DNA from: Clostridia bacterium
GTDB taxonomy: Bacteria; Bacillota; Clostridia; Oscillospirales; Acutalibacteraceae
Reading direction: 5' to 3'
Length of the DNA stretch: 64,000 nucleotides
Assembly (NCBI GenBank): GCA_017410195.1
Contig: JAFQRF010000070.1
Coordinates: 1-64,000 of the forward strand
Shown here: in pieces, positions 38,573-63,915 of the stretch
Position numbering within the stretch: position 1 is the stretch's first letter
Layout: the number at the start of each line of letters is the position of its first letter
Made by a program: the position numbers and the translations under genes
Notes under the pieces: model-generated
Database searches by the model: none
What the model was told of the DNA's origin: nothing
What the model saw: only the letters and a program-made list of their open reading frames with translations

Positions 38573-40372
38573 GTGAAAAACATATATTTTGTTCAGGCAA
38601 ATAATGTTTACGGTAACGACCGAAGGTCCGTTTATATACCCTACGCTTCGGGATGCATCGCTGCTTATGCCTTTGAAGATGAAACGGTAAAATCCGAGTG
38701 CAGCTTCGGCGGATTTGTTTATACGCACGAGCCGATTGCACAAGCCGTTGATAGGCTGAAAGACCCGTTTATTGTTGCGTTTTCGTGTTCAGTATGGAAC
38801 TATGAATATAACAAGGCTCTTGCAAGGGAGCTGAAAAAGGCTTATCCGTCGGTTGTTGTTATTTTCGGAGGACACAATGTTCTGCGTGATTTCGGAACTT
38901 TTGACGAATGCCCCGAGGCAGATGTGCTGATTTACCGTGAAGGTGAGGAAGCGTTCAGAAAGCTCGTTCTTTGCCTTCTCAGAGGAGAGACCTTTGAAAA
39001 CGTTGAGAATATTGCATACAAAAAAGACGGCAAGTATTTTAAAACTCCTGAAAAAAGCTTTTGCATGAGTGAATATCCGTCGCCCTATCTTAACGGAATA
39101 TTTGACGGAATAGCAGACGGGAACACCAATTTTTCCGCTATCCTCGAAACAAACCGGGGCTGCCCGTTCAAATGCTCCTTCTGCGATTGGGGAACTCTCG
39201 GCAGCAGGGTAAGACTTTTTCCTATGGAAAGAATAAAGGCTGAGATTGACTGGATTGCCGCTCACGGGATAGAGTATGTATATTGCGCCGACGGAAATTT
39301 CGGACTTTTTGACCGTGATGAGGAGATTGCGGAATACATAATTTCTTCCAAAAAAGCAACGGGATATCCGAAAAATTTCCGTGTGTGCTTCACCAAAAAC
39401 CGAACGGATTTCGTCAAAAAAATCTGCATGAGATTCAATGAGTACGGTCTTGACAAGGCGCAGACACTTTCTTTCCAGAGTCTTTCGCCTGTTGTTCTTG
39501 AAAATATCGGCAGAAAAAATATCTCCCTTGACCATTTCAGAGAGCTTATGAATGAATACAGCCGATGCGGAATATCAACTTCATCGGAGCTTATTCTGGG
39601 CTTGCCGGGTGAAACAAAAGAGAGCTTTACGCAGGGTATATGCGATTTGCTCGAATACGGTCAGCATAAGGCAATTCAGGTTTATACCTGTGACCTTCTG
39701 CCGAATTCGGATATGGGTTCGCCCGATTATGTTAAACGTTTCGGCATTGAAACGGTTAAAACTCCGTTTTTTCAGGCGCATTGCAGCGTGCATGAAAAGC
39801 ATGAGATTCAGGAATACAATTCAACGGTCATAAAAACGAATTCCATGAGTGTTGAAGATTGGATTTACTGTGTTGTTTTTGCATGCATCGTTCAGGCGTT
39901 TCATAATATAGGATTTTTCAGAGCGGTTGCGATGTTTCTCAGGCACGAAAAAGGAATTAGCTACCATGAGCTTTATTCCGCGATAACTGAATTTTCTCAA
40001 AATAAAGAAAACTCTGCGTGCAACGAAGTATATTCCGTTATTGAGGGGCTTGCAAGAGGAATGTCGGAGGGTAAAAATGCTTGGGCGGCTGCCTGCGATT
40101 CATTGGGTGACATCCGCTGGCAATTTGATGAAATATGTTTTCTCAAGAGCCTTGAGAAAGCGGATGAAATATATGATGAGCTTGAAAAGCTTGTTTACGA
40201 AAAATTCGGCAAGGATGATAAGACAAAGGCGGCGGTTGAATATCAGCGCAGGATTCTTAAAAGAGTCGGCAGCGGCGGAGAAATAAAAATAAGCTCCGAT
40301 TACGATTTTTACGGTTACATGGAAAATATCTATGAAGGCAGATATGAGCCGCTGAAAAAGGAAAGACGGTAA
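38573..40372 (+). CDS. B12-binding-domain radical SAM protein, family A member 1 (C-terminus frameshifted)
   Basis: 599 residues. Residues 1-165 form a cobalamin-binding-like Rossmann domain (VYIPYASGCIAAYAF, PFIVAFSCSVWNYEYNKALA, VVVIFGGHN, REGEEAF) without a DxHxxG motif, as in class B enzymes. The radical SAM cluster is RGCPFKCSFCDW (C197, C201, C204), followed by LSFQSLSPVVLENIGRKNIS and ELILGLPGE. A C-terminal helical domain follows (about 400-599). GTG start at 38573 with AGGAG. Compared with five paralogues, the last 45 or so residues are missing because a stop intervenes; they continue in another frame. Confidence 0.9.
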   Translation: MKNIYFVQANNVYGNDRRSVYIPYASGCIAAYAFEDETVKSECSFGGFVYTHEPIAQAVDRLKDPFIVAFSCSVWNYEYNKALARELKKAYPSVVVIFGGHNVLRDFGTFDECPEADVLIYREGEEAFRKLVLCLLRGETFENVENIAYKKDGKYFKTPEKSFCMSEYPSPYLNGIFDGIADGNTNFSAILETNRGCPFKCSFCDWGTLGSRVRLFPMERIKAEIDWIAAHGIEYVYCADGNFGLFDRDEEIAEYIISSKKATGYPKNFRVCFTKNRTDFVKKICMRFNEYGLDKAQTLSFQSLSPVVLENIGRKNISLDHFRELMNEYSRCGISTSSELILGLPGETKESFTQGICDLLEYGQHKAIQVYTCDLLPNSDMGSPDYVKRFGIETVKTPFFQAHCSVHEKHEIQEYNSTVIKTNSMSVEDWIYCVVFACIVQAFHNIGFFRAVAMFLRHEKGISYHELYSAITEFSQNKENSACNEVYSVIEGLARGMSEGKNAWAAACDSLGDIRWQFDEICFLKSLEKADEIYDELEKLVYEKFGKDDKTKAAVEYQRRILKRVGSGGEIKISSDYDFYGYMENIYEGRYEPLKKERR

Positions 40373-40512
40373 TTACCGTTGAAGATAAAGAAAAATGTGA
40401 TTCGCTTTATGATTACGCCTGCCGTATTGTGTGGTACGGCAGGAATCAGGCGGCGGCACTATATTCATCGGATTGCCGTTCACCGAGAAAAATAACTACA
40501 GGAGAGTGTTAA
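40366..40512 (+). pseudogene. Out-of-frame C-terminal tail of family A member 1
   Basis: Reading one base back from 40366 gives 48 codons before TAA at 40510-40512, including SLYDYACRIVWYGR, the counterpart of ADYAREIIWFGKR and the similar ends of the other family A proteins. Position and content show that the preceding gene lost frame (one inserted or deleted base, or a -1 shift) near GAAAGACGG. No canonical slippery heptamer is in frame. The next gene starts 2 bases after this stop, as expected if the tail once ended the gene. Confidence 0.8.
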
Positions 40513-40513
40513 T

Positions 40514-41449
40514 ATGTCAAAAACTCTGTCAGAATCAAAAAATAAAATAATAATGCTTGTTTTCCTTGCATTGGTTGTTTTGGGAAAAAGCGTGGTTGCG
40601 ATGTTTTCAAAGGGACGCCCGAGTGTCGGGGCGCTGATTTTCGGCGTTTTGATGTGCCTTTTATCCGTTGCACTGTTATTTTTCGATTTTCCGATGACAA
40701 AGGAAGCTCTTTTTGAAGGAAAAAATATATTCCGCATTATTGCTGCACTTGTTATCTTTATCGGAGCGTTTTCGGTATTTTATGTCAACCTTGCATTCAA
40801 TATGATTATGACAATTATACCGATTGCTGTATTCTGCTCGTCAGATACAAAATTTATTCCGATAAGTGTTGTTGCCTGTCTTTCGATTTTCTTAAGATAT
40901 GATCCGTTTGCTTTTACGGTTATTCCCGCTGCAATTTTTGTTACATTAATTCTTGTTGCACCTAAATTAAAAGAGGCAAAGATATGGGAAAAGCTTGTTT
41001 TTGCAGCGGCAATAATCAGCTATGTTATTGCTTTTGGCAATGTCGTTTATGAGCTGCGCTTTAATTTCAGCATGTCAACATTTATTGCTTCTCCCACAAA
41101 AACGATACCTCTTATGCTTATTGCGGCGTTCTGTATTGTCTGTGCTGTGATGTCGGTTAAAGCGGATAAACCTTCAAAGCATAAGAAGAAAACGAAAAAG
41201 AGCGATTACGAATCGAAGGTAAAAAAGCCCGAGTATCTTGCTGCATTTACTTATGCGGCTGCTGCCGTTTATTGCTTTGCAACGGCAATGCTTGAAGGAA
41301 AATATGCAATGTGCAGTATTGTTGCGCTTCTTCTGTCTTTGTTTATGGTTTGCAGAAACGAAACTCAGGTTCAGCTTGTTTCCGATAAGGTTGCAAAGGC
41401 GGCAGGAGGTTTTGTTGATAAAATTTCGGATGAATCAAAAGCAGAATAA
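40514..41449 (+). CDS. Polytopic membrane protein, unknown, within the radical SAM operon
   Basis: 311 residues, about eight to ten helices, with a lysine-rich cytoplasmic loop (KADKPSKHKKKTKKSDYESKVKKP, about 214-240). No family recognised. ATG 40514 with GGAGAG, directly after the tail of the first radical SAM gene. It could be a transporter or an assembly factor for the product; no motif supports a choice. Confidence 0.68.
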   Translation: MSKTLSESKNKIIMLVFLALVVLGKSVVAMFSKGRPSVGALIFGVLMCLLSVALLFFDFPMTKEALFEGKNIFRIIAALVIFIGAFSVFYVNLAFNMIMTIIPIAVFCSSDTKFIPISVVACLSIFLRYDPFAFTVIPAAIFVTLILVAPKLKEAKIWEKLVFAAAIISYVIAFGNVVYELRFNFSMSTFIASPTKTIPLMLIAAFCIVCAVMSVKADKPSKHKKKTKKSDYESKVKKPEYLAAFTYAAAAVYCFATAMLEGKYAMCSIVALLLSLFMVCRNETQVQLVSDKVAKAAGGFVDKISDESKAE

Positions 41450-41473
41450 CTGTTTGAAAGGATGTGTTTGCTG

Positions 41474-43387
41474 ATGAAAAGAAACGTATATTTCATTCAG
41501 GTTGACGTTTCGTCTGGCAAGGATTCGAGGGTTGTTTATCTGCCCTATACTGCCGGTGTTATCATCGCAAACGCATGGAAAAGAGAAAAGGTTGCCGCAA
41601 CTTATGAATTCAAGGATTTTATTTTTATAAGAAAAACGGTTGAAGACGTTGCGGAAGAAATGGAAAATCCTTCGGTTGTCGGTTTTTCAAACTATTGCTG
41701 GAATACCGAATATAACCTTGCGCTTGCAAGCGAAATAAAGAAACGATACCCCGACTGTATAACCGTTTTCGGAGGTCACAATATTCCTCAGAATACGGAT
41801 TTCCTTGAAAAATATCCGCAGATTGATTATCTCTGCTTCGGTGAGGGTGAGGTTACCTTCGGCGCATTGCTTGAAGCGTTTGACAGCGGAAACGCAGAGA
41901 ACGTTCCGAATATTGCATACAGAAAAAACGGCGAAGTTTTTATGAGTGAAACGAAGTCAATCTGCATGCCCGATTATGCATCGCCTTATCTTGACGGATG
42001 GTTTGACCCGATTCTTGAAAAATATCCGCATATCGAATTTAATACCATCCTTGAAACAAGCAGAGGATGCCCGAACCATTGCGCATATTGCGACTGGGGT
42101 CCGCTGATGGAAAAAATCAGATTCTTCTCACTTGAGAAGGTGCTTGCGGAGATTGAATGGATTGGCAGAAACAAGATAAGATTTGTCTGGGGCGCCGATG
42201 CAAATTTCGGCATTGGTAAAAACGATTTGACGATTGCCGACGCACTTGTTGCCGCAAAAGAGAAATACGGCTATCCCGAGAGAGTAAGAATAAATTATTC
42301 AAAGGGCAATTCGGAGCGTGTGCGTGAGATAGTGCGCCGATTTAACAGAAAAGGAATTGACCGTGAGGGTGCGACGATATCGCTTCAGAGTCTTTCGCCC
42401 GTTGTTCTCGAAAATATCGGCAGGAAGAATATGTCGCTTGAGAAATTCCGTGAGCATTTCAGCGTGTATCACGAGGAAGGGCTTCAGGTTTATTCCGAGC
42501 TTATTCTCGGCTTGCCGGGTGAAACCTATGACAGCTTTGTCGACGGAATATGCAAGCTTTTTGAAATAGGTCAGCACTTCATTTTTGAGGTCTACCACTG
42601 CATTGTTCTTCCGAATTCCGAACTCGGTCAGAAGGAATACATAAAAAAGCACGGCATCAAAACATCGAGGAGTGAGATAGTTCGTTTCCACTGCGCTACA
42701 GATGCTTATTATATCCCTGAAAAGATTGATATAATTACCGAAACGGCAGCCATGCCGTGTGCAGATTGGCAAAGTAGCTCGCTTTTTGCAGGCTTCACGC
42801 AGGCAATGCATGCCTGCGGACTTCTTCGTTGCTTTGCGGTTTATGCTTTCCATGAACTCGGCAAGGGCTACAGAAGCTTTTACGAAGGTCTTATGGAGTA
42901 TATTGAATCGGGCAACGCTCCGTTTACAAATGAGCTTTATCAGACGGTAAAGGATTCCTTTACAAAGCTTGCCGAGGGTGTGAATCCCAGATTTTTTGTG
43001 CCGTTTGCCGGCAATCTCGTTTGGGACCATTATGAATATATGTTTATCAGCATCAGCAGAGATTACGAAAAATTCTATTCGGAAATGATGCCCTATCTTC
43101 GCAGCGTAATTGACGACGAAAATATTCTTTCGCAGCTTCTCAAATATCAGAAAGCGGTCCTGAGAAGACCTGATGAAGAAACATGTGAATGCGAAACGGA
43201 ATATGATTTCTATGATTATTTCAGAAACATTTATGTCAACAAATATACCGCTTTGAAAAAGGGAAAATTCAAAACCGTGTTTACCGATTCAAACCCCGTC
43301 GGAAATTGGGAGGATTTCGGAAAGTTTGTTGTCTGGTACGGTAAAATGGGCAGTAAGTCCTATAAAGATACCATTGAAGTGAGTTGA
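41474..43387 (+). CDS. B12-binding-domain radical SAM protein, family A member 2
   Basis: 637 residues, full-length family A. B12-like domain: VYLPYTAGVIIANAW, PSVVGFSNYCWNTEYNLALA, ITVFGGHNIPQN, FGEGEVTF. Cluster RGCPNHCAYCDWG (C199, C203, C206). Then ATISLQSLSPVVLENIGRKNMS, ELILGLPGETYDSF, the C-terminal domain, and the tail WEDFGKFVVWYGKMG. Start ATG 41474 is chosen because the ATG at 41462 abuts AAAGG. It is followed 4 bases later by family B member 1. Confidence 0.92.
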   Translation: MKRNVYFIQVDVSSGKDSRVVYLPYTAGVIIANAWKREKVAATYEFKDFIFIRKTVEDVAEEMENPSVVGFSNYCWNTEYNLALASEIKKRYPDCITVFGGHNIPQNTDFLEKYPQIDYLCFGEGEVTFGALLEAFDSGNAENVPNIAYRKNGEVFMSETKSICMPDYASPYLDGWFDPILEKYPHIEFNTILETSRGCPNHCAYCDWGPLMEKIRFFSLEKVLAEIEWIGRNKIRFVWGADANFGIGKNDLTIADALVAAKEKYGYPERVRINYSKGNSERVREIVRRFNRKGIDREGATISLQSLSPVVLENIGRKNMSLEKFREHFSVYHEEGLQVYSELILGLPGETYDSFVDGICKLFEIGQHFIFEVYHCIVLPNSELGQKEYIKKHGIKTSRSEIVRFHCATDAYYIPEKIDIITETAAMPCADWQSSSLFAGFTQAMHACGLLRCFAVYAFHELGKGYRSFYEGLMEYIESGNAPFTNELYQTVKDSFTKLAEGVNPRFFVPFAGNLVWDHYEYMFISISRDYEKFYSEMMPYLRSVIDDENILSQLLKYQKAVLRRPDEETCECETEYDFYDYFRNIYVNKYTALKKGKFKTVFTDSNPVGNWEDFGKFVVWYGKMGSKSYKDTIEVS

Positions 43388-43391
43388 AAAA

Positions 43392-44879
43392 ATGAGGATA
43401 CTTCTTATAAATCCCGCAACCGTCGGATACTCGAGGTCTGTCACGACGCCTCTCGGACTTTTGTCGATTGCAAGCAGTCTTCAGTCAAAAGGTCATAAAG
43501 TCAGGCTTTACGACAGAACGGTTGAAAAGGTGAAGGCGGAGAAAGTTTTTGACGAATTCAGACCGGAGCTTGTCGGCGTTTCTCTTGTTTCGTTCAAGTC
43601 GGTTTACGATGCGCTCGAGATGTCAGAATATGCAAAGAAGCTTTCGCTTCCTGTTGTCTGGGGAGGGCCGCTTGCATCCGAAATCCCTGAAACCGTTCTA
43701 AAAAAGGGTTGCATTGATCTTGTTTCAATCGGCGAAGGCGAAGCAACCTGGATTGAGCTTGCAGAGAAATTTTTAAACGGCGAGAGAAATTTTGAATCTG
43801 TTGCCGGCATTGCGTTCAGAAACGAAGAAGGAAAAACGGTTATAACCGAAGCTAGGAATTTTGTCGATTTGGGTGAGCTTCCGCCGATTGACTGGTCACT
43901 TGTTGACGTGCCGAAATATTTTCAGTCATCGTATGAATGCGAAAAGATGCTCTATCTCTACTGTGCAAAGGGATGTCCTCACAGCTGCACATTCTGCTAT
44001 AACAAGGATTTCCATCGCTGCACTTACCGTAAGCGTCCGCTTGAACATGTACTTGATGAAATCGGATATCTTGTTAAAAACCACGGTATGGACGGCGTTT
44101 ATTTTGCCGATGAGATGTGGGGCAGAAACCGCAGCGAAATGAGAATGATTTGTGACAGTCTGCGAAGTCTTGACCTTGAATTTGTCTGGGGCTGCCAGAC
44201 GAGAATCGGTGTTTTCACCGAAGAGGATTTTAAATATATGTATGATTCGGGTTGCCGCTGGGTATTCTTCGGGGTTGAAAGCGGCTCCGAAAATATGCTT
44301 CAAAAAATGAACAAGCGCATACCCTATGATAAAATTGAAGAAACTTTCAGCAATTGCCGTAAGGCAGGGATAATTGCAATCGGCTCATTCATAGTAGGAT
44401 TTCCCGGCGAAACGGTTGACGATGTTGCAAAGACAGTTAATCTGATTGAAAAAATTGAAACTCCGCTTGTTAATCTCAATTATTTTGCACTCGTTCCCGG
44501 CTCGGATATCTATTACAAGCTGATAGAAGAAGGAAGATACCATGAAATAACAGATTTGAGCGAGGTTGCTGATATCAGACCCATCGAAAGAAATGAATAT
44601 CGCTTTACCGATGTGCCGGAAATTGACCTCAAGGTCATACGCTCGTGGTATATGTGGCGAAGCTTTTCGGCAAAAAGCCTTTCTGAGGACACAAAAGATT
44701 TTTCATTTGCGAAAAAAGTTGCTACCGATGCGATAAAACAGTTAAAAAGGAGCAAGCTCAAGGATTTTATAATTTCAATGTTCCTTTCGGGTACGGAATT
44801 CCTTTCGATTGTTTATTATTCCCATTTCTATCCGTCCGTAAAGAAAAAATACGGAATAGGTAAAAAGTATGATAAATAA
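43392..44879 (+). CDS. B12-binding-domain radical SAM protein, family B member 1
   Basis: 495 residues. The N-terminal domain opens MRILLINPATVGYSRSVTTPLG and contains VVWGGPLASEIPE and SIGEGEATW. Cluster KGCPHSCTFCYN (C195, C199, C202). Next come YFADEMWG, FFGVESGSENMLQKMNKRI and FIVGFPGETVDD. This is the BchE/HpnJ-like architecture of B12-dependent methylases and cyclases. The C-terminal 90 residues (MWRSFSAKSLSEDTKDFSFAKK...) match the two family B genes at 61-64 kb. Last gene of the plus-strand operon. Confidence 0.92.
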   Translation: MRILLINPATVGYSRSVTTPLGLLSIASSLQSKGHKVRLYDRTVEKVKAEKVFDEFRPELVGVSLVSFKSVYDALEMSEYAKKLSLPVVWGGPLASEIPETVLKKGCIDLVSIGEGEATWIELAEKFLNGERNFESVAGIAFRNEEGKTVITEARNFVDLGELPPIDWSLVDVPKYFQSSYECEKMLYLYCAKGCPHSCTFCYNKDFHRCTYRKRPLEHVLDEIGYLVKNHGMDGVYFADEMWGRNRSEMRMICDSLRSLDLEFVWGCQTRIGVFTEEDFKYMYDSGCRWVFFGVESGSENMLQKMNKRIPYDKIEETFSNCRKAGIIAIGSFIVGFPGETVDDVAKTVNLIEKIETPLVNLNYFALVPGSDIYYKLIEEGRYHEITDLSEVADIRPIERNEYRFTDVPEIDLKVIRSWYMWRSFSAKSLSEDTKDFSFAKKVATDAIKQLKRSKLKDFIISMFLSGTEFLSIVYYSHFYPSVKKKYGIGKKYDK

Positions 44880-44965: not shown

Positions 44966-46801
44966 TTATGTTCCGTTAAAATTATGTTTTTTATACTTCA
45001 ATTTATAATTGTATACCCATTCCGCACCGTATTTGGAAAGGTAAAGAAGAATGTGGTCGGTATCTGTGAAGCTGAGTGACCAAAGAGCATCGGCAGTCTG
45101 ACGGAGGAATTCTGCCTGGAAGGTCATTCTGTCTTTCTTTATATTTTTTGTCGGATTGCCGTTTATGACATAGTTGCAGGAAATGTGGAAATCGCCGTTG
45201 TCAACGATGTCCTTGATACCCGCATCATCCGTTTCCTTTATAAGAAGTGCATTCTTCTTTAATGCAAAATTTGATGGTGTGCAGCTGTTGACAAGGTCAC
45301 GGTTGCGAATGGTGTTTTTTGTCGCTTCCGCTTCTTCTGGGGTTTCGCTCGGATAGCCTAACATAAAGGTACACATATTCCACAGACCGACTGATTTCGC
45401 ATCCTCAAGCAGAGTTTTGCGATAGCTGCAGTCGATACCTTTGTTGATGAGCTTCATAATTCTTTCCGATTCAGCCTCATATCCCCACGCAAAGAAGCGT
45501 GCGCCTGCATTATAGAGATTTTGGAGAACTTCTTTAGTAAAGCCCTTTTCCATTCGGGCGAAGGAATAGAAGTTGATTTTAAGTCCTCTGCGAATAACTT
45601 CAAGAGCAAATTGATTGTAATATTTGGGAGGAACGGCTTCATCGGCGATGATGAAATGACGGAAACCGTATTTTTCAACGAGTGACTGGATTTCGTCAAC
45701 GGCGTGATTTACGCTCTTTATGTCAAAGCATTGCTGACCTGTGTAGAAATCGCAGAAGGTGCATTTTGCCCAGTAGCAGCTTTTTGAAAGCTGAACGGGT
45801 AAAACAATATCTGCCGAGAAATATTTGCCGAAATCGTAGCCGTCAAAGCAGGGCGGTGCGAGAGCATCCATATCAAGAAGCGGAGCGGTTTCGGTTTCTC
45901 TGATTTCGCCGTTTTTGTCTTTGTAGATAAGCGAATATACTTTATCGATGGGGATTTCTCCGTTGATTGCTTTTGCAAGGGTTACGGCTGCGATTTCGCC
46001 GTCACCGATCTGAACGGAGTCGCAGAATATTTCAAAGAATTCGGGAAATTTTTTGAGTGATTCACGGATTTTATAGATATAGTTACCGCCGAGGGTAATG
46101 TGGGCATTTGTTCTTTCTTTAAGGTATTTTGCAAGAGTAAGACCGGGTATTACCTGACTCAAATCAAAGATGCTGATACCGATGAGCGAATATTCCGCAA
46201 AATCCTCGGTTTTTATCTTTTCATTGAAATAATCAACAAACATGTTGAGGTTTGAATCGCTGCATTGAAGCTTTATGTCCTCGTAGTCGTAGCCGTAAAC
46301 GGGATTTGCAATGAAATTATCGAGCATTATCCTGCTCGGCATAAAGGGGAGAGAGATGATTCTGAGAGCATCCATGAGAGTGTCCTTTGCTTCGAAAAGC
46401 TGCTCGGGGTCATAGAAGCGCTCTTTATCCTTCATAACCGAAACCGCATCTTCTATTCTCTCGGCAATATCTTCCGCATTAATTTCATTTTGTGAAAAGA
46501 ATTCGGAGCATGCAATGAAACGAAGAAGCTTTGTCTGAAGCTCACGGGGATATTCATTGAATTTTTCCTCGCAATAGCCGTTTGCCTTCACTTCGGGCGC
46601 AAAGCTTTCGAAGAATTCTTTTGCTTCTTTTACAGCGGAGAGAACGTTCTTCTTTTTGAGAATATCGTTGAAAAATTCGATATTCAGATCCCTTGCGGCG
46701 GCATGCATGCCGTTCTTTTTGAATTGACCTATAAGCTGCGCCGCTGAAAGATAGGGGTTCATCGGGTACCATTGCGGCGGCAGAATAAAAAGTGTTTTCA
46801 T
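44966..46801 (-). CDS. B12-binding-domain radical SAM protein, family C member 1
   Basis: 611 residues. The N-terminus LFILPPQWYPMNPYLSAAQL starts a cobalamin-binding-like fold interrupted by about 150 helical residues (55-205), which resumes at LIGISIFDLSQVIPGLTLAK, ITLGGNYIYKI and VQIGDGEIAAV. The cluster is SKSCYWAKCTFCDFYTGQQC: Cys 342, 347 and 350 give CX4CX2C, not the usual CX3CX2C, with a further Cys nearby. Then IIADEAVPPKYY, FAWGYEAESERI and MLGYPSETPEE. Its start overlaps the end of the glycosyltransferase gene by 4 bases; it is the last gene of the minus-strand operon. Confidence 0.9.
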   Translation of the reverse strand: MKTLFILPPQWYPMNPYLSAAQLIGQFKKNGMHAAARDLNIEFFNDILKKKNVLSAVKEAKEFFESFAPEVKANGYCEEKFNEYPRELQTKLLRFIACSEFFSQNEINAEDIAERIEDAVSVMKDKERFYDPEQLFEAKDTLMDALRIISLPFMPSRIMLDNFIANPVYGYDYEDIKLQCSDSNLNMFVDYFNEKIKTEDFAEYSLIGISIFDLSQVIPGLTLAKYLKERTNAHITLGGNYIYKIRESLKKFPEFFEIFCDSVQIGDGEIAAVTLAKAINGEIPIDKVYSLIYKDKNGEIRETETAPLLDMDALAPPCFDGYDFGKYFSADIVLPVQLSKSCYWAKCTFCDFYTGQQCFDIKSVNHAVDEIQSLVEKYGFRHFIIADEAVPPKYYNQFALEVIRRGLKINFYSFARMEKGFTKEVLQNLYNAGARFFAWGYEAESERIMKLINKGIDCSYRKTLLEDAKSVGLWNMCTFMLGYPSETPEEAEATKNTIRNRDLVNSCTPSNFALKKNALLIKETDDAGIKDIVDNGDFHISCNYVINGNPTKNIKKDRMTFQAEFLRQTADALWSLSFTDTDHILLYLSKYGAEWVYNYKLKYKKHNFNGT

Positions 46802-47544
46802 TTATTTTCCTCCGGAAGGATAATGTCCTTTTTCGGCATGAATCTTATGTGAAGCGCCACGCCGAGGTAAGATGCGATTTGTTTTGCGGAGTTGCTGGAT
46901 TTGCCGTCCTTTCTCGGGTAACAGTTGGTCGGATATTCCTTGAACTTATAGCCGAGACGGATGGGTTTTAGGACCATTTCAAGCAGGAACGCAAAGTCCG
47001 TGCGCTCAAAACGGATTGATTTGTAAAGCGCTGAGGGGGCAATCTGAACGGGAATTGTGAAATCCGTGAGGTTGCGCATATAGAGAACAGCCAGAAATTT
47101 CTGCGCAAAAAAATTGATGAATTTCTTGAGCCTGCCGTAGTCGTAGAACTTGCAGCCCTTCATCCAACGGGAAGCAGAATGAATGATATCAGGCTCTTTT
47201 TTTGCATTTTCTATCATTTCGGGGATGATGCTCAGGTCGAGCGCCATATCCGATGCAATCAGCAGGCTGTGCGAACCACGTGCGGCATCAATCGTATCGT
47301 TAACGCTTGCCATTCCCGGCCGGGTTTGTTTCATAATGACAATCGGAACATCGGTTTCGATTTTGCGGATTTCGTCAAGCACCTTATAGCAGTCGGGCGT
47401 TGTTCTCTCCTCGGAATAGCAGAGAATAATTTCCGCTAAATCATCATGGTTGCAGATTTCGAGAAGGGTATCAACGGTCTGCCTGAGAGTGTAAGTTTCC
47501 GTGACGGCACCTGCCATTATTGAAACATTTCTGAATTCTGACAT
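46798..47544 (-). CDS. Family 2 glycosyltransferase
   Basis: 248 residues. The GT-A fold is shown by VSIMAGAVTETYTLRQTVDTLLEI, ILCYSEERTTPDCYKVLDEI, QTRPGMASVNDTIDAARG and the metal-site-like ASDMALD. There is no clear membrane helix, although the stretch FFAQKFLAVLYMRNLTDF may associate with the membrane, as in dolichyl-phosphate mannose synthase-like enzymes. It presumably transfers the sugar activated by the heptose module of this operon (inference). It abuts family A member 3 with no gap. Confidence 0.87.
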   Translation of the reverse strand: MSEFRNVSIMAGAVTETYTLRQTVDTLLEICNHDDLAEIILCYSEERTTPDCYKVLDEIRKIETDVPIVIMKQTRPGMASVNDTIDAARGSHSLLIASDMALDLSIIPEMIENAKKEPDIIHSASRWMKGCKFYDYGRLKKFINFFAQKFLAVLYMRNLTDFTIPVQIAPSALYKSIRFERTDFAFLLEMVLKPIRLGYKFKEYPTNCYPRKDGKSSNSAKQIASYLGVALHIRFMPKKDIILPEENK

Positions 47545-51326: not shown

Positions 51327-51344
51327 TTTATCAGTCCTAAGCAA

Positions 51345-53270: not shown

Positions 53271-53271
53271 T

Positions 53272-55243: not shown

Positions 55244-55300
55244 GGGTGTGGGCAACGCCCACCCTTAATTCTTCATTTTTAATTTTTCATTCTTCATTAA
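55244..55300 (-). repeat. Hairpin and AT-rich interspersed sequence inside the operon
   Basis: GGGTGTGGGC-AAC-GCCCACCC (55244-55264) forms a strong hairpin, followed on the plus strand by TTAATTCTTCATTTTTAATT-type AT-rich sequence that runs into the 3' end of member 6 (stop at 55287). It could attenuate transcription or be a mobile-repeat remnant that trimmed the end of that gene. Confidence 0.45.
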
Positions 55301-57188: not shown

Positions 57189-58430
57189 TTATAACACCTG
57201 CTCCAAATCAAAAAGGGTTTGGTAATGTGCCGATGCAATATCGGCGGCATCCGACTCGTCAGAGCCGATAAGTATGTTTTTGCTCGTGCCTGCATTAATT
57301 CCTGCGAGCAAATCCGAACGGCGGTTGCCGACGGTGAGCGAATTTTCTGTATCAATTTCAATTCCGATTTGAGAAAAATCGGAAACAGCTTTCAAAATAA
57401 GACCCGGCTTGGGCTTTCTGCATGAGCATTCCGTTCTGTATTCCTCAATCGCAGCTTCGGGGTGGTGAGGACAATAATAATATCCGTCTGCAATGACGGA
57501 ATGCTTTTCGCAAAGGAGAGAATCGATATATCCGTGAAGAATATCAACATCTTCTGTCTTATAAAGACTTTTTGCGATACCTGCTTGGTTTGTGACGATT
57601 ATGACAAGATATCCCTTTTTTTTAAGCCCGGCGATCGCTTTATCGGCATCGGGGAGAAATTTAAAGTCCTCGGTGCGGTAAAGATGACCCGAATCGTGGT
57701 TAATTGTTCCGTCGCGGTCAAGAAAAACTGCTTTGCGTGTTCTTTTTGAAACAAGAAATTCTTTCTCCGCTTCGGCCTTGTGATAATTTTCGGGAATGCC
57801 GATATCGATAAAATATCCGTTGCTCTCAAGTACGCCAACGGAGCAGTATCCGCCTTCAAGAACAAGCTTTTCAAATGAGAACTTTTCTTCCGTCACGCCG
57901 TCAAGAACGTTTTTGTTGATAAAATAAATTCCGCCGTTGATGAGGCCTGAGGATTTAACGCCTTTTTCACGGAAGCCGACGAGTCTGCCGTTGTCTGTCG
58001 TAAGAAATCCCGAATGCTCTGCCCACGGAACTTCTCTTGCAGCGAGTGTAATCGGGCATCCCGCTTTTTCGTGAAGCTTCTGCATTTCGAAAAGGTCAAC
58101 ATCAAAAAAAGAATCTCCGTTGAGCGCAACGGCATAATCGCCACAGCACATACCGAGAGCTTTTTTTATTGCACCGCCCGTGCCGAGAGGGGAATCCTCC
58201 CTGCAGTAGTCGATAACCATTCCCCGATAGGTTCTTCCGATTGTGTTTTCGATGCATTCGGCAAGATATCCCGTTGAAATGATTACTCTGTGAATACCGT
58301 TTGTATAGAGATAATCAAGAAGATAGTGCAGGAACGGTTTGCCGCCTATCGGAGCAAGAGGCTTCGGAAGATTATCAATGCATGTTTTAAGACGTGTGCC
58401 GAAGCCGCCTGCGAGAACAATTGCTTCCAT
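57189..58430 (-). CDS. Bifunctional heptose-1-phosphate nucleotidyltransferase / heptose bisphosphate phosphatase (HddC-GmhB fusion)
   Basis: 413 residues in two parts. Residues 1-225 are a nucleotidyltransferase: VLAGGFGTRLK, NLPKPLAPIGGKPFL, DSPLGTGGAI, LNGDSFFDVD. Residues 230-413 are a GmhB-type HAD phosphatase: FLDRDGTINHD, VTNQAGIAK, zinc ligands in YYCPHHPEA and ECSCRKPKPG. In place of the common VGDRxxD there is VGNRRSD (one Asp replaced by Asn). Known pathway: GmhB removes the 7-phosphate from D-glycero-alpha-D-manno-heptose 1,7-bisphosphate and HddC makes the GDP-heptose. The ATG shares a base with the cupin TGA. Confidence 0.9.
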   Translation of the reverse strand: MEAIVLAGGFGTRLKTCIDNLPKPLAPIGGKPFLHYLLDYLYTNGIHRVIISTGYLAECIENTIGRTYRGMVIDYCREDSPLGTGGAIKKALGMCCGDYAVALNGDSFFDVDLFEMQKLHEKAGCPITLAAREVPWAEHSGFLTTDNGRLVGFREKGVKSSGLINGGIYFINKNVLDGVTEEKFSFEKLVLEGGYCSVGVLESNGYFIDIGIPENYHKAEAEKEFLVSKRTRKAVFLDRDGTINHDSGHLYRTEDFKFLPDADKAIAGLKKKGYLVIIVTNQAGIAKSLYKTEDVDILHGYIDSLLCEKHSVIADGYYYCPHHPEAAIEEYRTECSCRKPKPGLILKAVSDFSQIGIEIDTENSLTVGNRRSDLLAGINAGTSKNILIGSDESDAADIASAHYQTLFDLEQVL

Positions 58431-58795
58431 CAGGCATCTTCCTCCGCAATGATATCTTTTGTGCCGTCGGGCAGTTCAACGCCGTTATCATAAAACGCAA
58501 CAAGAACGGAATCTTCATGATAGTCAAAAGTGTGGATGACATTCGGCTCTATAACAAACATATCACCTTTTTTGAAGTCGAAGAATTCTATTTTATCGCC
58601 GAGCTTTGCTTCAACGGTGAAGGAGCCTTCAACAACGTAGAAGCCTTCACGGTTAAGCTTGTGAAAATGTCTGCCTCTTTCAACGCCTGCTTTTGAAGTG
58701 CAGACATTAATCTGCTTATACCCCTCATGCACAAGCTGAATCAGGCTTCCTCGCTCGTCTTCAAAAACAAAATCGGGTTTTATTATCGTTATCAT
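58430..58795 (-). CDS. Small cupin, WxcM/FdtA-like sugar isomerase or regulator
   Basis: 121 residues. The single cupin fold contains GRHFHKLNREGFYVVEGSFTV and IEPNVIHTFDYHEDSVLVAF, with His and Glu ligand positions. It resembles 3,4-ketoisomerase-like or dTDP-sugar-epimerase-like cupins of glycan clusters. Placed between the heptose kinase and nucleotidyltransferase genes (TGA overlaps the next ATG), so it likely acts on the same sugar; the reaction is unknown. Confidence 0.8.
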   Translation of the reverse strand: MITIIKPDFVFEDERGSLIQLVHEGYKQINVCTSKAGVERGRHFHKLNREGFYVVEGSFTVEAKLGDKIEFFDFKKGDMFVIEPNVIHTFDYHEDSVLVAFYDNGVELPDGTKDIIAEEDA

Positions 58796-58806
58796 TTCTC
58801 GCTCCG

Positions 58807-59784
58807 TCAGTTGTTAACAATTATTTTTGTGCCTTCGTTTTCAAACCTGAACTTGATTTCAAGCATTCCTGAAAGAGAGCTTCTGACGCTTTCGTGCTTT
58901 TCTTCGGGAACATAGAAAAGAAGGCATCCGCCGCCGCCCGCACCGAGAAGCTTGCCTCCGAGTGCGCCTGCGGTCATGGCTTTCCGATATATTTCGTCTA
59001 TGTAATCTGTAGATATTTTGTTGCTGATGCTTCTTTTGAGAAGCCATGTTTCATTGAGCAGTCTGCCGAAATCGTCGAGCGATGCAGACGGGTTGATGAG
59101 AATATCTTCCGCAACATCGACCATTTTCAGCATTTCGAGAAGTTCGGCTGTCTTTTGGTTCATGGCAACCTTTGTGGATTTTTGAATCTCAAATGAAAAA
59201 CGTGAAAGTCCTGTAAAAAACATCAGCAGGTTGCCGTTCAGTTTTTGTTTTCTCTCTTCGGAAATACCGAGAGGGGTGACCGTATAGCTGTCTGCGTTAA
59301 AATCAATACGGTTGAAGCCGCCGAATGCCGCCGCTATCTGGTCCTGAATCCCACCGTCTTCTTTGCAAAGCGTACGTTCGAGATAAATCGCATCGTCTGC
59401 AAGCTCACGCTTGGTTTTGGTTACGCCCTGCATTGTGTAAAAAGCGTTGAGCAGACCGACCGAGAATGAACTGCTTGTGCCGAGTCCTGTTTTTGAGGGA
59501 ATATCAGCATCGTAGTTCAGCGCAATTCTTTCCAGACCGAGCCATTCCATTGCGTTGCGGATTGCAGGGTGCTTTATTTCTTCAACGGAATTGACTTTTT
59601 CGATTTGTGCGTATGCAAGATAGGTTTTGTAATCGAAAAGAGGCGGAAGCTCACGCACATTGACGTGACAGTATTTATCAAAGGTTGTTGAGATGACTGC
59701 GCCCGAATGCTCGCGGTAAAATTCGGGGAAATCCGTTCCGCCGCCGAAAAATGACATTCTGACAGGCGTCTGCGAAATAATCAT
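58807..59784 (-). CDS. hddA: GHMP kinase, D-glycero-alpha-D-manno-heptose 7-phosphate kinase type (HddA)
   Basis: 325 residues. TPVRMSFFGGGTDFPEFYREHSG, SKTGLGTSSSFSVGLLNAFY (ATP loop) and AGALGGKLLGAGGGGCLLFYV are the three GHMP motifs. The TPVRMSFFGGGTD opening is the HddA-type signature. It would phosphorylate heptose 7-phosphate at C1, giving the bisphosphate for the phosphatase two genes on. First gene of the about 15-kb minus-strand operon, behind a good promoter and GAAGGAG site. Confidence 0.9.
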   Translation of the reverse strand: MIISQTPVRMSFFGGGTDFPEFYREHSGAVISTTFDKYCHVNVRELPPLFDYKTYLAYAQIEKVNSVEEIKHPAIRNAMEWLGLERIALNYDADIPSKTGLGTSSSFSVGLLNAFYTMQGVTKTKRELADDAIYLERTLCKEDGGIQDQIAAAFGGFNRIDFNADSYTVTPLGISEERKQKLNGNLLMFFTGLSRFSFEIQKSTKVAMNQKTAELLEMLKMVDVAEDILINPSASLDDFGRLLNETWLLKRSISNKISTDYIDEIYRKAMTAGALGGKLLGAGGGGCLLFYVPEEKHESVRSSLSGMLEIKFRFENEGTKIIVNN

Positions 59785-59815
59785 TCAAACACTCCTTCAA
59801 ATCAGACTACCGAAC

Positions 59816-59844
59816 ATTATAACATATATAATATATTAAATCAA
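59816..59844 (-). promoter_or_regulatory. Promoter of the heptose/radical SAM operon
   Basis: Minus strand TTGATT (59839-59844), 17-base spacer, TATAAT (59816-59821), in a very AT-rich gap. No other strong promoter was seen before the last gene at 44966. Confidence 0.7.
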
Positions 59845-59852
59845 CTGTTTTA

Positions 59853-60800
59853 TTAATAAACAATATTAATGGGTTTTCCGTTGAGAAATGCTTCAACGTT
59901 TTCTCTGCAGATTTTCATAAGGCGCTCCCTTGTTTCGAAACCTGCCCATGCAATATGGGGAGTTATGAAGCAATTTTCAAGTCCGAAAAGAGGGTTGTCG
60001 GATTTGGGCGGTTCAACCGAAAGAACGTCAAGACCCGCACCTGCAATTTTGCCGTTTTTCAGTGCATCCGATAGGGCGGCTTCATCAACAACCTGACCTC
60101 TGGAAGTATTGATAAATATAGCGTTCGGCTTCATTTTTGAAAGAAAATCCGCATTAACCATTCCTTCTGTAAGAGGAGTCAGAGGACAGTGAACGGAAAC
60201 AAAATCGCTCCTCGAAAGAAGCTCATCTTTTTCGCAGAATTCAACGCCTTCAAACGGTGCTGGATGGTTGGTCGATGCGACTACCTTCATGCCGAATGCA
60301 AGGGCAATTTTCGCAACAGCCTTGCCGATTTTTCCGAATCCGATGATTCCGAGAGTCTTTCCGCAAAGCTCCGTGAGGGGTGTTTTCCAATAGCAGAAAT
60401 CCTTGCAGGATGACCATTCTCCCGAGTGTACGGATTCGCTGTGAATGCCGACGGCGTTGGTCATTTCAAGTATCAACGCAAAAACAAGCTGAGCCACCGC
60501 CGATGTGCTGTAAGACGGAATGTTGCAGACGGGAATGCCTTTTTCTTTACAGAATTCCCAGTCAACTATGTTATATCCCGTGCTGAGAAGGCCGATATAT
60601 CTGAGGTTTGTGAGTGTTTCGAGAAGCTCTTTTCTCAGCGGAGTTTTGTTGGTTATAACGATGTCACAGCCCTTTGTTCTTTCGGCAATCAGCTCTGCGG
60701 GAGTGCGGTCATAAATTGTGCATTCTCCAAGCTTTTCAAGCCATTCCCAGGAAAGATCTCCGGGATTTTCCGTGTATCCGTCAAGAACGGTAATTTTCAT
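59853..60800 (-). CDS. D-2-hydroxyacid dehydrogenase (glycerate/hydroxypyruvate type)
   Basis: 315 residues. LGIIGFGKIGKAVAKIALAFGMKV is the NAD-binding loop; INTSRGQVVDEAAL has the catalytic Arg region, the Glu lies in LDVLSVEPP, and the His in ITPHIAW. Similar to hydroxypyruvate reductases. It reduces a 2-oxoacid with NADH. Start 60800 is set by GGAGG. Its position between the radical SAM units hints at supply of a hydroxyacid unit, but it could be independent. Confidence 0.92.
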   Translation of the reverse strand: MKITVLDGYTENPGDLSWEWLEKLGECTIYDRTPAELIAERTKGCDIVITNKTPLRKELLETLTNLRYIGLLSTGYNIVDWEFCKEKGIPVCNIPSYSTSAVAQLVFALILEMTNAVGIHSESVHSGEWSSCKDFCYWKTPLTELCGKTLGIIGFGKIGKAVAKIALAFGMKVVASTNHPAPFEGVEFCEKDELLSRSDFVSVHCPLTPLTEGMVNADFLSKMKPNAIFINTSRGQVVDEAALSDALKNGKIAGAGLDVLSVEPPKSDNPLFGLENCFITPHIAWAGFETRERLMKICRENVEAFLNGKPINIVY

Positions 60801-60882
60801 ATGATTTTCCTCCGTCATTTTCATGGGATATATTATAACACGTTTTTTATAAAAAGGTACTACTGTTTATAAATTATTTTTA

Positions 60883-60911
60883 TTGACTTTATTTTAATTT
60901 TGGTATAAAAT
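60883..60911 (+). promoter_or_regulatory. Promoter of the second plus-strand radical SAM operon
   Basis: TTGACT (60883-60888), 17-base spacer, TAAAAT (60906-60911); a TATAAA at 60904 gives a shorter spacer. Confidence 0.55.
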
Positions 60912-60961
60912 TTAAAGTTGGAAAAGTATCGGAAAATTCATACGGCAACAGGAGAAAAATA

Positions 60962-62437
60962 ATGAAAGTTTTGCTTATAAACCCAGCCCCCGAACATTAT
61001 ACGAGAGCCCGATGCGCACCGCTCGGCGTTTTATCAATAGCAAGCTACCTCGAAGTCAAGGGTCACGATGTTAAGGTCCTCAACAGAGCCATAAAATCAA
61101 CCGATATCAACGAGGAGCTTGATGAGTTCAAGCCCGATTTTGTGGGCTGTTCGCTTCTCACGGTTATGTCGGTTAAAGACTGCGTTGTTGTTTCCGAAGC
61201 GGCGAAAAAACGCGGAATCTGCGTTGTATGGGGCGGTCCCTATGTTTCCGCTATTCCCGAGATGACTCTTGAACTCGGCTGCATTGACATGATATCAATG
61301 GGCGAGGGTGAAGAGACCTGGCTTGAGCTTTGTGAAACCAAGGCAAAAGGCGGAGATATATATTCAATCAAGGGCCTTGCATATATGAAGGACGGCAAAT
61401 TCGTCATGACTCCCGAAAGAGAGTTTACCGACCTTTCAACTCTGCCGACGCTCAATTTTGATTTGGTTGATGCGAAGAAAACGCTTTATAAAAACTACGA
61501 TTACGACGGCATAATGGGCATGTATGTTTCAAAGGGCTGCAACGGAAGATGCACCTTCTGCTATAACCATGCTTTTCATAAGAGCTGCCGCCGCTCACGC
61601 CCGCTTGAGCATTTCATTTATGAAGCAAAGTTTGTCAAAGAAAAGTACGGTGCAAAGGCGTTTGCACTTGCAGATGAACTTTTCGGATATAACAAACAGA
61701 CCCTTCATGAATTCTGCGATGCGCTTGATGAAGCGAATCTCGGCATGAACTGGGGCGGAATGACAAAAATCGGTCTTTTCGACAGAGAGGATTTTCAGCG
61801 TATGTATGATTCGGGCTGCAGATGGCTCGAATTCGGCGTTGAAAGCGGTTCGCAGACGACTCTTGCACGCATGAAAAAGGGTCTGAAGCTCAGCCGTGTT
61901 GAAGAGGATTTGAAAATCTGCAAGGAAATCGGAATTATAACCCTTTGCTATTTTATTGTCGGTTATCCCGACGAAACGGAAGAAGAACTGAGAGAAACCT
62001 GTGAGCTTGTTGAAAAAATCGGATATTCAAGATTTGTAAGCTCCTATTTCAGCCCTCTGCCCGGCTCGGAGATTTATGATACCCTTGTTGCCGAAGGCAG
62101 GTTAACTCCGCCTAAATCAATGAAAGAGTGCATGAAAACAAAGATTTTCTATTCTCCCAAGCCCAATCTTTCAAAGGTCAGCACTCTTGACCTCAAAGTT
62201 GTGCGTTCATATATGCTTTGGAAGAGCTTTACGGAAAAGAAATTTGATGAAAACGGAAAGATTAATTATGCAACCGCAAGAAAGGATATCATGGATGTTC
62301 TCAGAAGCCTTAAGGGTCACGGCTTTAAGGCGGGCGTTGAGCAGTTTGTGATGAGCGGATATGAATTCCTTGATATCTTCTTCTATGCGAATTTCTTCCC
62401 GAAAATACGCAAAAAATATAACATAGGCAGGAAATAA
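60962..62437 (+). CDS. B12-binding-domain radical SAM protein, family B member 2
   Basis: 491 residues. VLLINPAPEHYTRARCAPLGVLSI, VVWGGPYVSAIPE and SMGEGEETW in the B12-like domain; cluster KGCNGRCTFCYN (C193, C197, C200); FALADELFGYNKQTL, WLEFGVESGSQTTLARM and FIVGYPDETEEEL. The C-terminal part has IFYSPKPNLSKVSTLDLKVVRSY, shared nearly word for word with member 3. ATG 60962 with CAGGAG. Two bases separate it from member 3. Confidence 0.92.
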   Translation: MKVLLINPAPEHYTRARCAPLGVLSIASYLEVKGHDVKVLNRAIKSTDINEELDEFKPDFVGCSLLTVMSVKDCVVVSEAAKKRGICVVWGGPYVSAIPEMTLELGCIDMISMGEGEETWLELCETKAKGGDIYSIKGLAYMKDGKFVMTPEREFTDLSTLPTLNFDLVDAKKTLYKNYDYDGIMGMYVSKGCNGRCTFCYNHAFHKSCRRSRPLEHFIYEAKFVKEKYGAKAFALADELFGYNKQTLHEFCDALDEANLGMNWGGMTKIGLFDREDFQRMYDSGCRWLEFGVESGSQTTLARMKKGLKLSRVEEDLKICKEIGIITLCYFIVGYPDETEEELRETCELVEKIGYSRFVSSYFSPLPGSEIYDTLVAEGRLTPPKSMKECMKTKIFYSPKPNLSKVSTLDLKVVRSYMLWKSFTEKKFDENGKINYATARKDIMDVLRSLKGHGFKAGVEQFVMSGYEFLDIFFYANFFPKIRKKYNIGRK

Positions 62438-62439
62438 CA

Positions 62440-63915
62440 ATGAGGATTCTGTTTGTCAATCCGTCAATGGAGCGTTATACCCGTCAGATAAGTGCGCCTA
62501 TAGGTCTTGTTTCAATTGCAACCTATCTGAAAGCCAACGGACATACGGTGAAAATAATTGACAGAACAATAAAAACAACAAATATCCGCAAGGAAATTGA
62601 GAGCTTTGCGCCCGATATCGTCGGCATTTCCGTTATCTCAACAAAATCCTTTGGTGATTCGGAAAAAATTTCGCTGACAGCAAAAAAATACGGTGCAAAG
62701 GTTGTCTGGGGAGGAATATTCGCATCACTTGACCCCGAGTTTATATTTAAGAATATAGATATTGACTTCGTTTCAATCGGCGAGGGTGAAGAAACCTGGC
62801 TTGAACTTGCAAATAGCCTTGAGTCGGGCGGCGACCCGAAAAAAATCGCAGGTCTTGCATATAAGGAAAACGGCAAGGTTGTTTATACTCCGGAAAGAGA
62901 GTTTACCGACCTTTCAATCCTTCCCCGAATGGATTTCAGTCTTATCGATGTCGATAAATATCTCGGCCCGATGTACGGCTGCAAAAAAACGGCGCTGCTT
63001 TACATTTCAAAGGGCTGCTACGGGCAGTGTACCTTCTGTTTCAACTCGAAATTCCACCGCAGCTGCCACAGAGAAAGACCGCTTGAAGTGTTCTTCGAAG
63101 AAGTAAAATATCTTATGGATAATCATGGGGTGGACTGCATTTATTTTGCTGATGAGCTTTTCGGGAAAAACAAGGCACATCTCAGATATCTTTGCGAAGC
63201 GTTTATCGAATCGGGGCTTGGCTTTAAATGGGTTGCTCAGACGAGAGCAGGTTATTTTGATCTTGAAGACTATAAGCTTATGAGGAAGGCAGGGTGTATC
63301 GCTGTTGATTTCGGCATTGAAACAGGTTCGCCTTCGATGCTTAAAGCAATCAAAAAGAACATCCCGTACGACAAAATAAAGCAGACCTTTGAGCTTTGCA
63401 GGGAAGCGGAGATCATAACCCTTGCAAACTTTATAATCGGGTTCCCCGACGAAACAGAGGAGCAGCTGAAAGATACGATAAAAATGGCAACGGATATTCC
63501 CGCAACTCAGAGAACGTTTTTCTTTTTCATGCCCGGACCGGGAAGTGAGCTTTACGAAAAGCTTGTTGCAAGCGGAAAATATGTTCCTCCCAAGACCTTC
63601 AGGGAATATACAAACGTGCAGTTTTACTATTCACCCAAACCCAATTTCTCAAAAATTCCGTCAAAGGAGCTTAAAGCAGTCAGAGCTTATTTTCTCTGGA
63701 AGGGGTTTTCAAGAAAGTATTTTTCTCAGACGGCAAGAACCTACGATATCGCAAAAAAAGATATTGTTGATGTTCTCAAGCAGTTCAAGGGTCATGATTT
63801 GCGCTTTGCAATTCAGCTGATTCTGATATCGGCATATGAATTTCTCGATATCTTCTGCTATGCGCATTTCTGCCCGTCGGTGATTAAAAAGTATAATTTG
63901 AATATTGATGAATAA
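62440..63915 (+). CDS. B12-binding-domain radical SAM protein, family B member 3
   Basis: 491 residues, tandem paralogue of member 2 with identical length. ILFVNPSMERYTRQISAPIG, VVWGGIFASLDPE and SIGEGEETW; cluster KGCYGQCTFCFN (C193, C197, C200); FADELFGKNKAHLRYL, DFGIETGSPSMLKAIKKNI and FIIGFPDETEEQL; C-terminal FYYSPKPNFSKIPSKELKAVRAY. Probably a tandem duplication followed by divergence of the active-site loop. Confidence 0.92.
   Translation: MRILFVNPSMERYTRQISAPIGLVSIATYLKANGHTVKIIDRTIKTTNIRKEIESFAPDIVGISVISTKSFGDSEKISLTAKKYGAKVVWGGIFASLDPEFIFKNIDIDFVSIGEGEETWLELANSLESGGDPKKIAGLAYKENGKVVYTPEREFTDLSILPRMDFSLIDVDKYLGPMYGCKKTALLYISKGCYGQCTFCFNSKFHRSCHRERPLEVFFEEVKYLMDNHGVDCIYFADELFGKNKAHLRYLCEAFIESGLGFKWVAQTRAGYFDLEDYKLMRKAGCIAVDFGIETGSPSMLKAIKKNIPYDKIKQTFELCREAEIITLANFIIGFPDETEEQLKDTIKMATDIPATQRTFFFFMPGPGSELYEKLVASGKYVPPKTFREYTNVQFYYSPKPNFSKIPSKELKAVRAYFLWKGFSRKYFSQTARTYDIAKKDIVDVLKQFKGHDLRFAIQLILISAYEFLDIFCYAHFCPSVIKKYNLNIDE

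Follow-up and report, generated by a model that had tools for sequence, protein, structure and literature searches.

A clostridial array of eleven radical-SAM genes among sugar-activation genes, with a possible role in making a C-methylated surface sugar

What could a bacterium build with eleven radical-SAM enzymes encoded together among genes for sugar activation and transfer? This question is raised by positions 38573–63915 of the window (the whole stretch of DNA analysed, 64,000 nucleotides). A sequence-only reading had described there eleven full-size radical-SAM genes in three paralogous families, all with a B12 domain, accompanied by sugar-nucleotide and glycosyltransferase genes. By Pfam and NCBIfam scans, eleven full-length radical-SAM genes and the three families were found within these coordinates; the split was six A, two B and three C, in place of the six, three and two first given. 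The nearest relatives of the source bacterium, among the searches made, came from ruminant guts.

Three radical-SAM families

Family A is TokK/CysS-like. It is encoded on the forward strand at 38573–40372 (A1) and 41462–43387 (A2), and on the reverse strand at 47545–49470 (A3), 51345–53339 (A4, whose real start, judging by the alignment, is probably near 53270), 53272–55188 (A5) and 55287–57185 (A6). A sigma-70-type promoter-like site, a consensus match only (12/12, with TG ahead of the second hexamer), was located at 38512–38540 on the forward strand. The A profile matched TokK with 480 bits over positions 20–587 of 640 and CysS with 267 bits. The CX3CX2C motif was present in the six window copies, in 119 of 120 clostridial A ORFs and in 34/34 others; in the single miss (L071) the scan began at residue 150 and the slice shown starts within the motif. 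W75 of A1 aligned with W76 of TokK and was invariant across the six copies, and in TokK and CysS this Trp is described as sitting beneath the cobalt (PMC12846815, PMC9692996). The Trp pattern was matched by 126 of 154 A ORFs; 12 of the 28 misses were inspected, and 11 of them had the Trp next to a neighbour disallowed by the pattern, while one slice did not include the site. PF02310 was over its cut-off in four of the six copies, the other two scoring 31.5 and 31.7 against 32.1. Family A is predicted from these features to have an N-terminal cobalamin-binding domain with a Trp under the Co, and for this family the claim of a B12 domain stood.

Near full-length homology, the cysteine motif and the Trp under cobalt are all shared with the KedN5-type methylases TokK and CysS. 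A1, the only A copy scanned with NCBIfam, obtained 266.6 bits with NF033712 (KedN5 subfamily), below the cut-off of 700, and the window copies were 37–41% identical to A1. Characterised clusters with TokK/CysS-type enzymes are known to have one to three of them; the array described here has six A copies, beside five other radical-SAM genes and the genes for sugar activation and transfer. A seventh A gene, elsewhere in the genome, lies downstream of a GT2 gene and a ManC-like nucleotidyltransferase gene.

Family B, on the reverse strand at 44966–46801 (B1) and 49488–51344 (B2), agreed less well with the first description. In place of the canonical CX3CX2C, all 18 full-length members had CX4CX2C, as did 120/120 B homologues among the matches listed, of 608, and the B12 domain was below the Pfam cut-off in both window copies. 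The structural model of B2 showed a Rossmann-type cobalamin domain and a fold like that of cobalamin-binding radical-SAM enzymes, with OxsB, TsrM, AprD4 and MgmA as fold neighbours. With these it would share the cobalamin-type N-terminal fold and the radical-SAM domain; it differs in the cysteine spacing, in a long helical stretch (about residues 45–207) separating the first strands from the remainder of the cobalamin-type domain, and in its NCBIfam scores. Both copies were below the cut-off of every NCBIfam model matched, TIGR03975 (RiPP C-methyltransferase) giving 104 and 124 bits against 281.85.

Family C, with predicted B12-binding radical-SAM members, is encoded on the forward strand at 43392–44879 (C1), 60962–62437 (C2) and 62440–63915 (C3), and its sequence neighbours were MgmA, AprD4 and BchE. 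The BchE model TIGR02026 (cut-off 481 bits) was not reached by C1 (142 bits) or C3 (179 bits). AprD4, which is not known to need cobalamin, is a close match of both B and C, so use of cobalamin may be absent from these two families. The enzyme class of the locus genes is strongly supported; the substrate and the number and sites of methylation are what we infer.

Conservation and distribution of the array

Each window A copy grouped with orthologues of other genomes (SH-aLRT 100 per group), and in both trees the closest protein to every copy came from another genome, which rejected a recent tandem amplification. One related locus (L001) had one orthologue per window A in two shared blocks, A6-A5-A4-A3-GT2 and epimerase-A1-A2, the second being inverted relative to the first between the two genomes. 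Another (L031) kept the order and relative orientation of 11 genes from the kinase to C1, its C1 being 93% identical. The dN/dS values were 0.03–0.12 in all 13 pairs, taken from the radical-SAM, GT2, heptose and cupin genes with C2 and C3 left out. A product that is repeatedly modified, as had been proposed, is likely. The six A copies are ancient lineages, each conserved on its own and kept under purifying selection, which fits distinct roles. It was also postulated that each enzyme acts at its own carbon; TokK and CysS are each described as methylating iteratively (PMC12846815), so one enzyme need not equal one carbon.

The identical 11-gene order on the L031 contig speaks against an assembly artefact or chimaera for 43–60 kb. 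The C2/C3 end is less secure because these two genes had no close orthologue in the compared set. An extension of the locus past 63915 was rejected by the content of the ten downstream ORFs scanned, where M42 peptidases, a VTT protein and a kinase of galactokinase type were among the products, and the block likely ends there. Control by a cobalamin riboswitch was considered too: none was found in the window or in this draft genome, and 18 of the 22 genomes searched had a match at E ≤ 0.001, 15 of them over the family cut-off.

The sequence-only reading knew of no characterised locus like this one; the array is not without counterparts, however. By the genome-neighbourhood comparison that it had suggested, comparable arrays and partner genes were found in other Clostridia, with up to 14 such genes in one genome region. 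Nor are these unrelated housekeeping genes, considering the Pfam matches, the TokK/CysS homology and the trees. A was found, own genome included, in 11 of 120 genomes of a genus-spread family draw and in 2 of 394 in an order-wide search with at most three candidates per genome and a stricter threshold; its distribution is patchy. For genomes in which scoring was confined to ten candidates, the copy number is a minimum. Actinobacterial relatives of A also exist, with five in tandem at L070. Identical C sequences occurred in L002/L090, L024/L094 and L035/L082, so the genome-contig loci and the loci of the family genomes are not independent samples. Two proteins of L030 had no Pfam match.

Sugar activation, transfer and membrane genes

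The sugar genes announced beforehand were present: a kinase, a nucleotidyltransferase-phosphatase fusion, an epimerase and a GT2. The HddA-like GHMP kinase (58807–59784, reverse strand; PF00288, PF08544) scored 139 bits with NF049969 (HddA), below the cut-off of 600. The fusion of an HddC-like nucleotidyltransferase and a GmhB-like heptose-bisphosphate phosphatase (57189–58430, reverse strand) was recognised with NCBIfam; its HddC domain gave 187 bits with NF049965, below the cut-off of 300, and its GmhB domain exceeded TIGR00213 (150.4 against 149.6) and fell below NF006506 (140.5 of 178) and NF050049 (116.4 of 250). By comparison with the GDP-D-glycero-D-manno-heptose pathway (GmhA-HddA-GmhB-HddC), the kinase, GmhB and nucleotidyltransferase are in common; here, however, HddC and GmhB are fused, HddA and HddC scores are below cut-offs, and no GmhA was found in the locus. 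A GmhA candidate elsewhere in the genome (C30) had 90 bits, below the cut-off, and none of the 32 genomes searched had a candidate above it. In G073 a GmhA-like gene is found 1.4 kb off the A cluster, and in G066 and G036 one adjoins the kinase/HddC genes; such genes are present in A-negative genomes too.

Besides the source genome, 7 of 10 A-positive family genomes had both the kinase and a full HddC-GmhB fusion, against 2 of 109 A-negative ones (p = 7e-8). The A-positive genomes lacking the pair were G048, G060 and G098, and the A-negative ones having it were G036 and G066. Kinase or HddC was present in 10 of 47 clostridial loci, for which the fetched stretch was at most about 22 kb and often shorter; among those of at least 15 kb, three of 28 (L008, L011, L042) were without any partner gene. 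A further 29 loci came mostly from other phyla; within the stretch fetched, ten of these had a homologue of the kinase or of HddC, at weak scores (70 and 88 bits) in two cases, and the single A genes of L055 and L060 lie within nucleotide-sugar operons. An SDR sugar-nucleotide epimerase/dehydratase (37466–38410, reverse strand; PF01370 104 bits, PF16363 85 bits) had homologues in 9/47 clostridial loci and in L060. A small cupin-like protein (58430–58795, reverse strand), possibly a sugar isomerase or epimerase, recurred in 10/47; its NCBIfam cupin-type matches were all far below cut-off.

The GT2 gene (46798–47544, reverse strand) is predicted to encode a DPMS/ArnC/GtrB-like polyprenyl-phosphate glycosyltransferase. 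Its profile matched DPMS (5mlz, 53 bits) best in the PDB, followed by ArnC and sll0501; PF00535 was found at E ≤ 0.01 in 12/12 members, with 23.0 bits for the window copy against a cut-off of 23.3, and the gene was present in 30 of 47 clostridial loci. The multi-pass membrane protein mem36 (36191–37426, forward strand) may have a GT-C-like fold by structure comparison, with a Z within the range reachable by unrelated helical proteins and a Foldseek result that was not significant; translocon and GPI-transamidase chains were among the structures compared. We read mem36 as a probable GT-C glycosyltransferase. The GT2 matches and this GT-C-like fold would recall the transfer of lipid-linked sugars by DPMS/ArnC/GtrB and GT-C enzymes. 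We know of no case in which a modified heptose is the sugar so transferred.

A second membrane protein, mem40 (40514–41449, forward strand), had no Pfam match, and a phmmer search of 76 loci at E ≤ 1e-10 gave it no homologue; it matched the protein at the corresponding place in L001 weakly (37 bits over 72 columns). The D-2-hydroxyacid dehydrogenase (59853–60824, reverse strand; PF02826 202 bits) was rejected as a core part, since the same search of the 76 loci gave no homologue, and it probably lies outside the conserved system. A 10/12 promoter-like match (59844–59816) was found between it and the kinase.

The proposed product and its alternatives

Taking these genes together, we lean towards a locus that makes a lipid-linked heptose-type sugar, which would be repeatedly C-methylated and become part of a surface glycan. 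The starting point would be heptose 7-phosphate supplied from elsewhere in the genome. After phosphorylation by the GHMP kinase, the GmhB domain would remove a phosphate and the HddC domain would convert the product to a GDP-heptose. Reshaping of the ring would then fall to the epimerase and the cupin-like protein, the six A enzymes could each take a different position or follow one another on successive intermediates, and B and C might contribute more radical chemistry in the form of methylation or deoxygenation. The sugar would be passed to polyprenyl phosphate by the DPMS-like GT2, and mem36 would probably move it on to the glycan on the outside. Several results weigh against this reading: the HddA and HddC scores below cut-off, the lack of a GmhA gene in the locus, the imperfect pairing of A with the kinase/HddC genes, the loci without partner genes, the missing riboswitch, the mem36 comparison and the possibility that B and C do without cobalamin. 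A precedent for methylating a sugar carbon with a radical-SAM enzyme is GenK, the gentamicin C-6' methylase (PMC4039129). MoeK5 of moenomycin is a further example; each of these antibiotic pathways is known with a single sugar-methylating enzyme, whereas the window has a multi-paralogue array.

The array could instead make a diffusible, antibiotic-like natural product that the sugar genes merely decorate. TokK and CysS, the nearest characterised kin of A, have precursors of antibiotics as substrates (of carbapenam or cystobactamid type; PMC12846815), and the actinobacterial relatives point the same way. Pfam or NCBIfam scans of 19 genes of the locus, however, brought up no NRPS or PKS (small ORFs, as RiPP precursors, were listed for 58300–61000), the recurring partners are the GT2, the GT-C-like protein and nucleotide-sugar genes, and gene content varies between relatives as it does in surface-glycan loci. 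We regard this explanation as rather unlikely.

It is very unlikely that the enzymes modify a lipid carrier or membrane lipid rather than the sugar: C1 and C3 scored 121 and 129 bits with a ladder-lipid B12 model that has its cut-off at 360, but the scans of the locus genes, to which mem40 gave no match, brought up none for lipid synthesis, and the A genes of other phyla adjoin nucleotide-sugar genes. Similarly improbable is that the A copies are redundant, serving dose or phase variation of one common reaction. The tandem layout and the identities to A1 would agree with it, yet there are no recent duplicates, L001 keeps one-to-one orthologues of all six, and each copy is separately constrained.

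Within the surface-sugar reading a broader proposal is possible, which we put forward tentatively. Gut Clostridia might have an unrecognised class of surface-glycan locus, each with an array of between 4 and 14 cobalamin-type radical-SAM enzymes. Starting from a polar heptose, these would make a sugar that is hydrophobic, branched and densely C-methylated; the coat would be B12-dependent, and its methyl pattern would be set by the A, B and C orthologues held by each strain. In the portions of the literature that our search returned, no such locus or heavily C-methylated surface sugar was described. If the surface-sugar reading is right, bacteria of animal guts would make wholesale use, for their surface sugars, of a reaction met chiefly in rare antibiotics, the C-methylation of unactivated carbons, and their surface chemistry would hinge on vitamin B12. 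The locus is a natural set of at least six TokK-like paralogues with conserved separate identities, suited to the study of methylation site and number, and it also offers, in B, a radical-SAM family with an unusual cysteine spacing.

Radical SAM genes of the locus and the TokK/CysS kinship of family A

Eleven full-length radical SAM ORFs are encoded in 38573-63915 of the window, and Pfam Radical_SAM was over the cut-off in each; the total claimed in the sequence-only reading was correct. By alignment, six of them form the TokK/CysS-like family A (38573 and 41462 on the forward strand; 47545, 51345, 53272, and 55287 on the reverse), two form family B (44966 and 49488, both reverse), and three form the BchE/AprD4-like family C (43392, 60962, and 62440, all forward); the earlier grouping had A right and the counts of B and C interchanged. 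An N-terminal cobalamin-domain-like fold had been attributed to all eleven proteins. Four of the A proteins and the three C proteins scored above the cut-off of the B12-binding domain PF02310; two A fell short by less than 1 bit and neither B reached the cut-off in the Pfam scan. The cysteine motif of B (44966-46801, 49488-51344) is CX4CX2C, not CX3CX2C, as it is in 120/120 B homologues listed, out of 608. With the A profile, the whole 2.36-Mb draft genome gave seven full-length A proteins, six of them within this locus.

The profile built from the six A sequences matched, in the PDB, TokK with 480 bits (positions 20-587 of 640) and CysS with 267 bits. W76 of TokK was aligned to W75 of A1, and this tryptophan is invariant across the six A of the window. 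The corresponding tryptophan lies beneath the cobalt in TokK and CysS, both of which methylate iteratively (PMC12846815, PMC9692996). CX3CX2C was intact in 119/120 clostridial A ORFs, the single miss being a slicing artefact, and in 34/34 other A ORFs. Since A1, the only A scanned with NCBIfam, scored 266.6 and missed the KedN5 cut-off of 700, we call A kin of the KedN5 group, not demonstrated members of that subfamily. The assignment of the enzyme class is very probably right.

Two features lie upstream: before A1 (38512-38540), a promoter-like site that matches the sigma-70 consensus perfectly and has TG preceding the second hexamer, and, at 30263-31672, a glycosidase of the GH30_2 type whose start is hydrophobic. 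Small ORFs, as possible precursor peptides, were listed in 58300-61000 only.

Conservation and distribution

The system is real, conserved, and patchily spread. The best 80 of at least 560 confirmed genome-contig stretches gave 76 loci, 47 clostridial (by title and tree) and 29 others; a gut site or faeces was named in 22 of the 47 clostridial titles. A locus from water buffalo colon (L031) kept the window's order and relative orientation for eleven genes: kinase (HddA-like), cupin, HddC-GmhB fusion, A6, A5, A4, B2, A3, GT2, B1, and C1. Each window A clustered with orthologues of other genomes at SH-aLRT 100 (IQ-TREE, 41 rows), and a 143-row FastTree was concordant on these groupings. All six have one orthologue each in locus L001, which keeps the blocks A6-A5-A4-A3-GT2 and epimerase-A1-A2, the second inverted relative to the first; a search of its 21.8 kb found no B. 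Against L031 or another locus (L013), dN/dS was 0.03-0.12 in 13/13 measured pairs of radical SAM, GT2, heptose, and cupin genes (C2, C3, and the epimerase not among them), and 0.33 with a high dS (1.9) for the membrane protein mem36, a probable GT-C glycosyltransferase. C2 and C3 had no close orthologues in the locus set and are thus less conserved parts of the locus. A run of four C genes on one strand was seen in L035 (5836-11964).

Eleven of 120 same-family genomes were A-positive, own included, across genera, as were 2/394 in an order-wide draw, own included, under a stricter threshold with fewer candidates scored. Positive family genomes carried 1 to 10 A copies, and for those in which scoring stopped at ten candidates the copy number is a minimum. 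One region (G102:C83; L082, L083) holds 7 A and 7 C, 14 radical SAM genes, exceeding the window. An actinomycete draft genome has five weak A relatives in tandem (L070 2600-16043; 282-302 bits).

Association with sugar genes and the predicted pathway

With the window's genome left out, 7/10 A-positive vs 2/109 A-negative family genomes carried the kinase as well as the complete HddC-GmhB fusion (Fisher p=7e-8); with it counted, both occur in an identical set of ten genomes. In G073, a GmhA-like gene was located 1.4 kb away from the A cluster; G066 and G036 each have one adjoining their kinase/HddC pair. Among the 47 clostridial loci of the best-80 set, many of them partial, GT2 was found in 30, mem36 in 17, cupin in 10, kinase in 9, epimerase in 9, and HddC in 8 (kinase or HddC in 10). 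Of the 29 other loci, 10 had homologues of the kinase or HddC, of which two were weak.

Taking into account family, conservation, distribution, and sugar genes, we infer a pathway from a GDP-heptose-type precursor to a C-methylated, lipid-linked sugar. The precursor would be reshaped, and the A enzymes would add methyl groups to its carbons using methylcobalamin radical chemistry; B and C would contribute further radical steps. GT2 would then load the sugar onto polyprenyl phosphate and the GT-C-like protein would transfer it to an outer glycan. A sugar substrate is likely, and the heptose identity and step order are less supported than this; the product of the locus is a prediction. Against this mechanism, however, the HddA and HddC models score under their cut-offs, GmhA is absent from the locus, the A-positive genomes G048, G060, and G098 have no kinase/HddC-GmhB pair, three long loci carry none of the partner genes, and no cobalamin riboswitch was matched in this draft genome, with a match in 18/22 genomes. 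The nearest sugar precedent found is GenK of gentamicin (PMC4039129). The enzyme kinds are known; no description of such a locus was found by title or abstract start among the papers listed in the literature searches, which mostly left subscription papers uncovered.

A single A lies amid nucleotidyltransferase or kinase, epimerase, and a transketolase-type pair in L055 (Nitrospinota), which also has RmlC, and in L060 (Saganbacteria). The split transketolase/E1-type pairs (L060 6996-8971 and 11992-14000; L055 5163-6971) stand within these one-A nucleotide-sugar operons and perhaps make two-carbon branches on sugars. The seventh A of the genome (L099 6278-8155; G000:C14) has GT2 and a ManC-like nucleotidyltransferase upstream, and downstream a 641-aa protein without a Pfam match.
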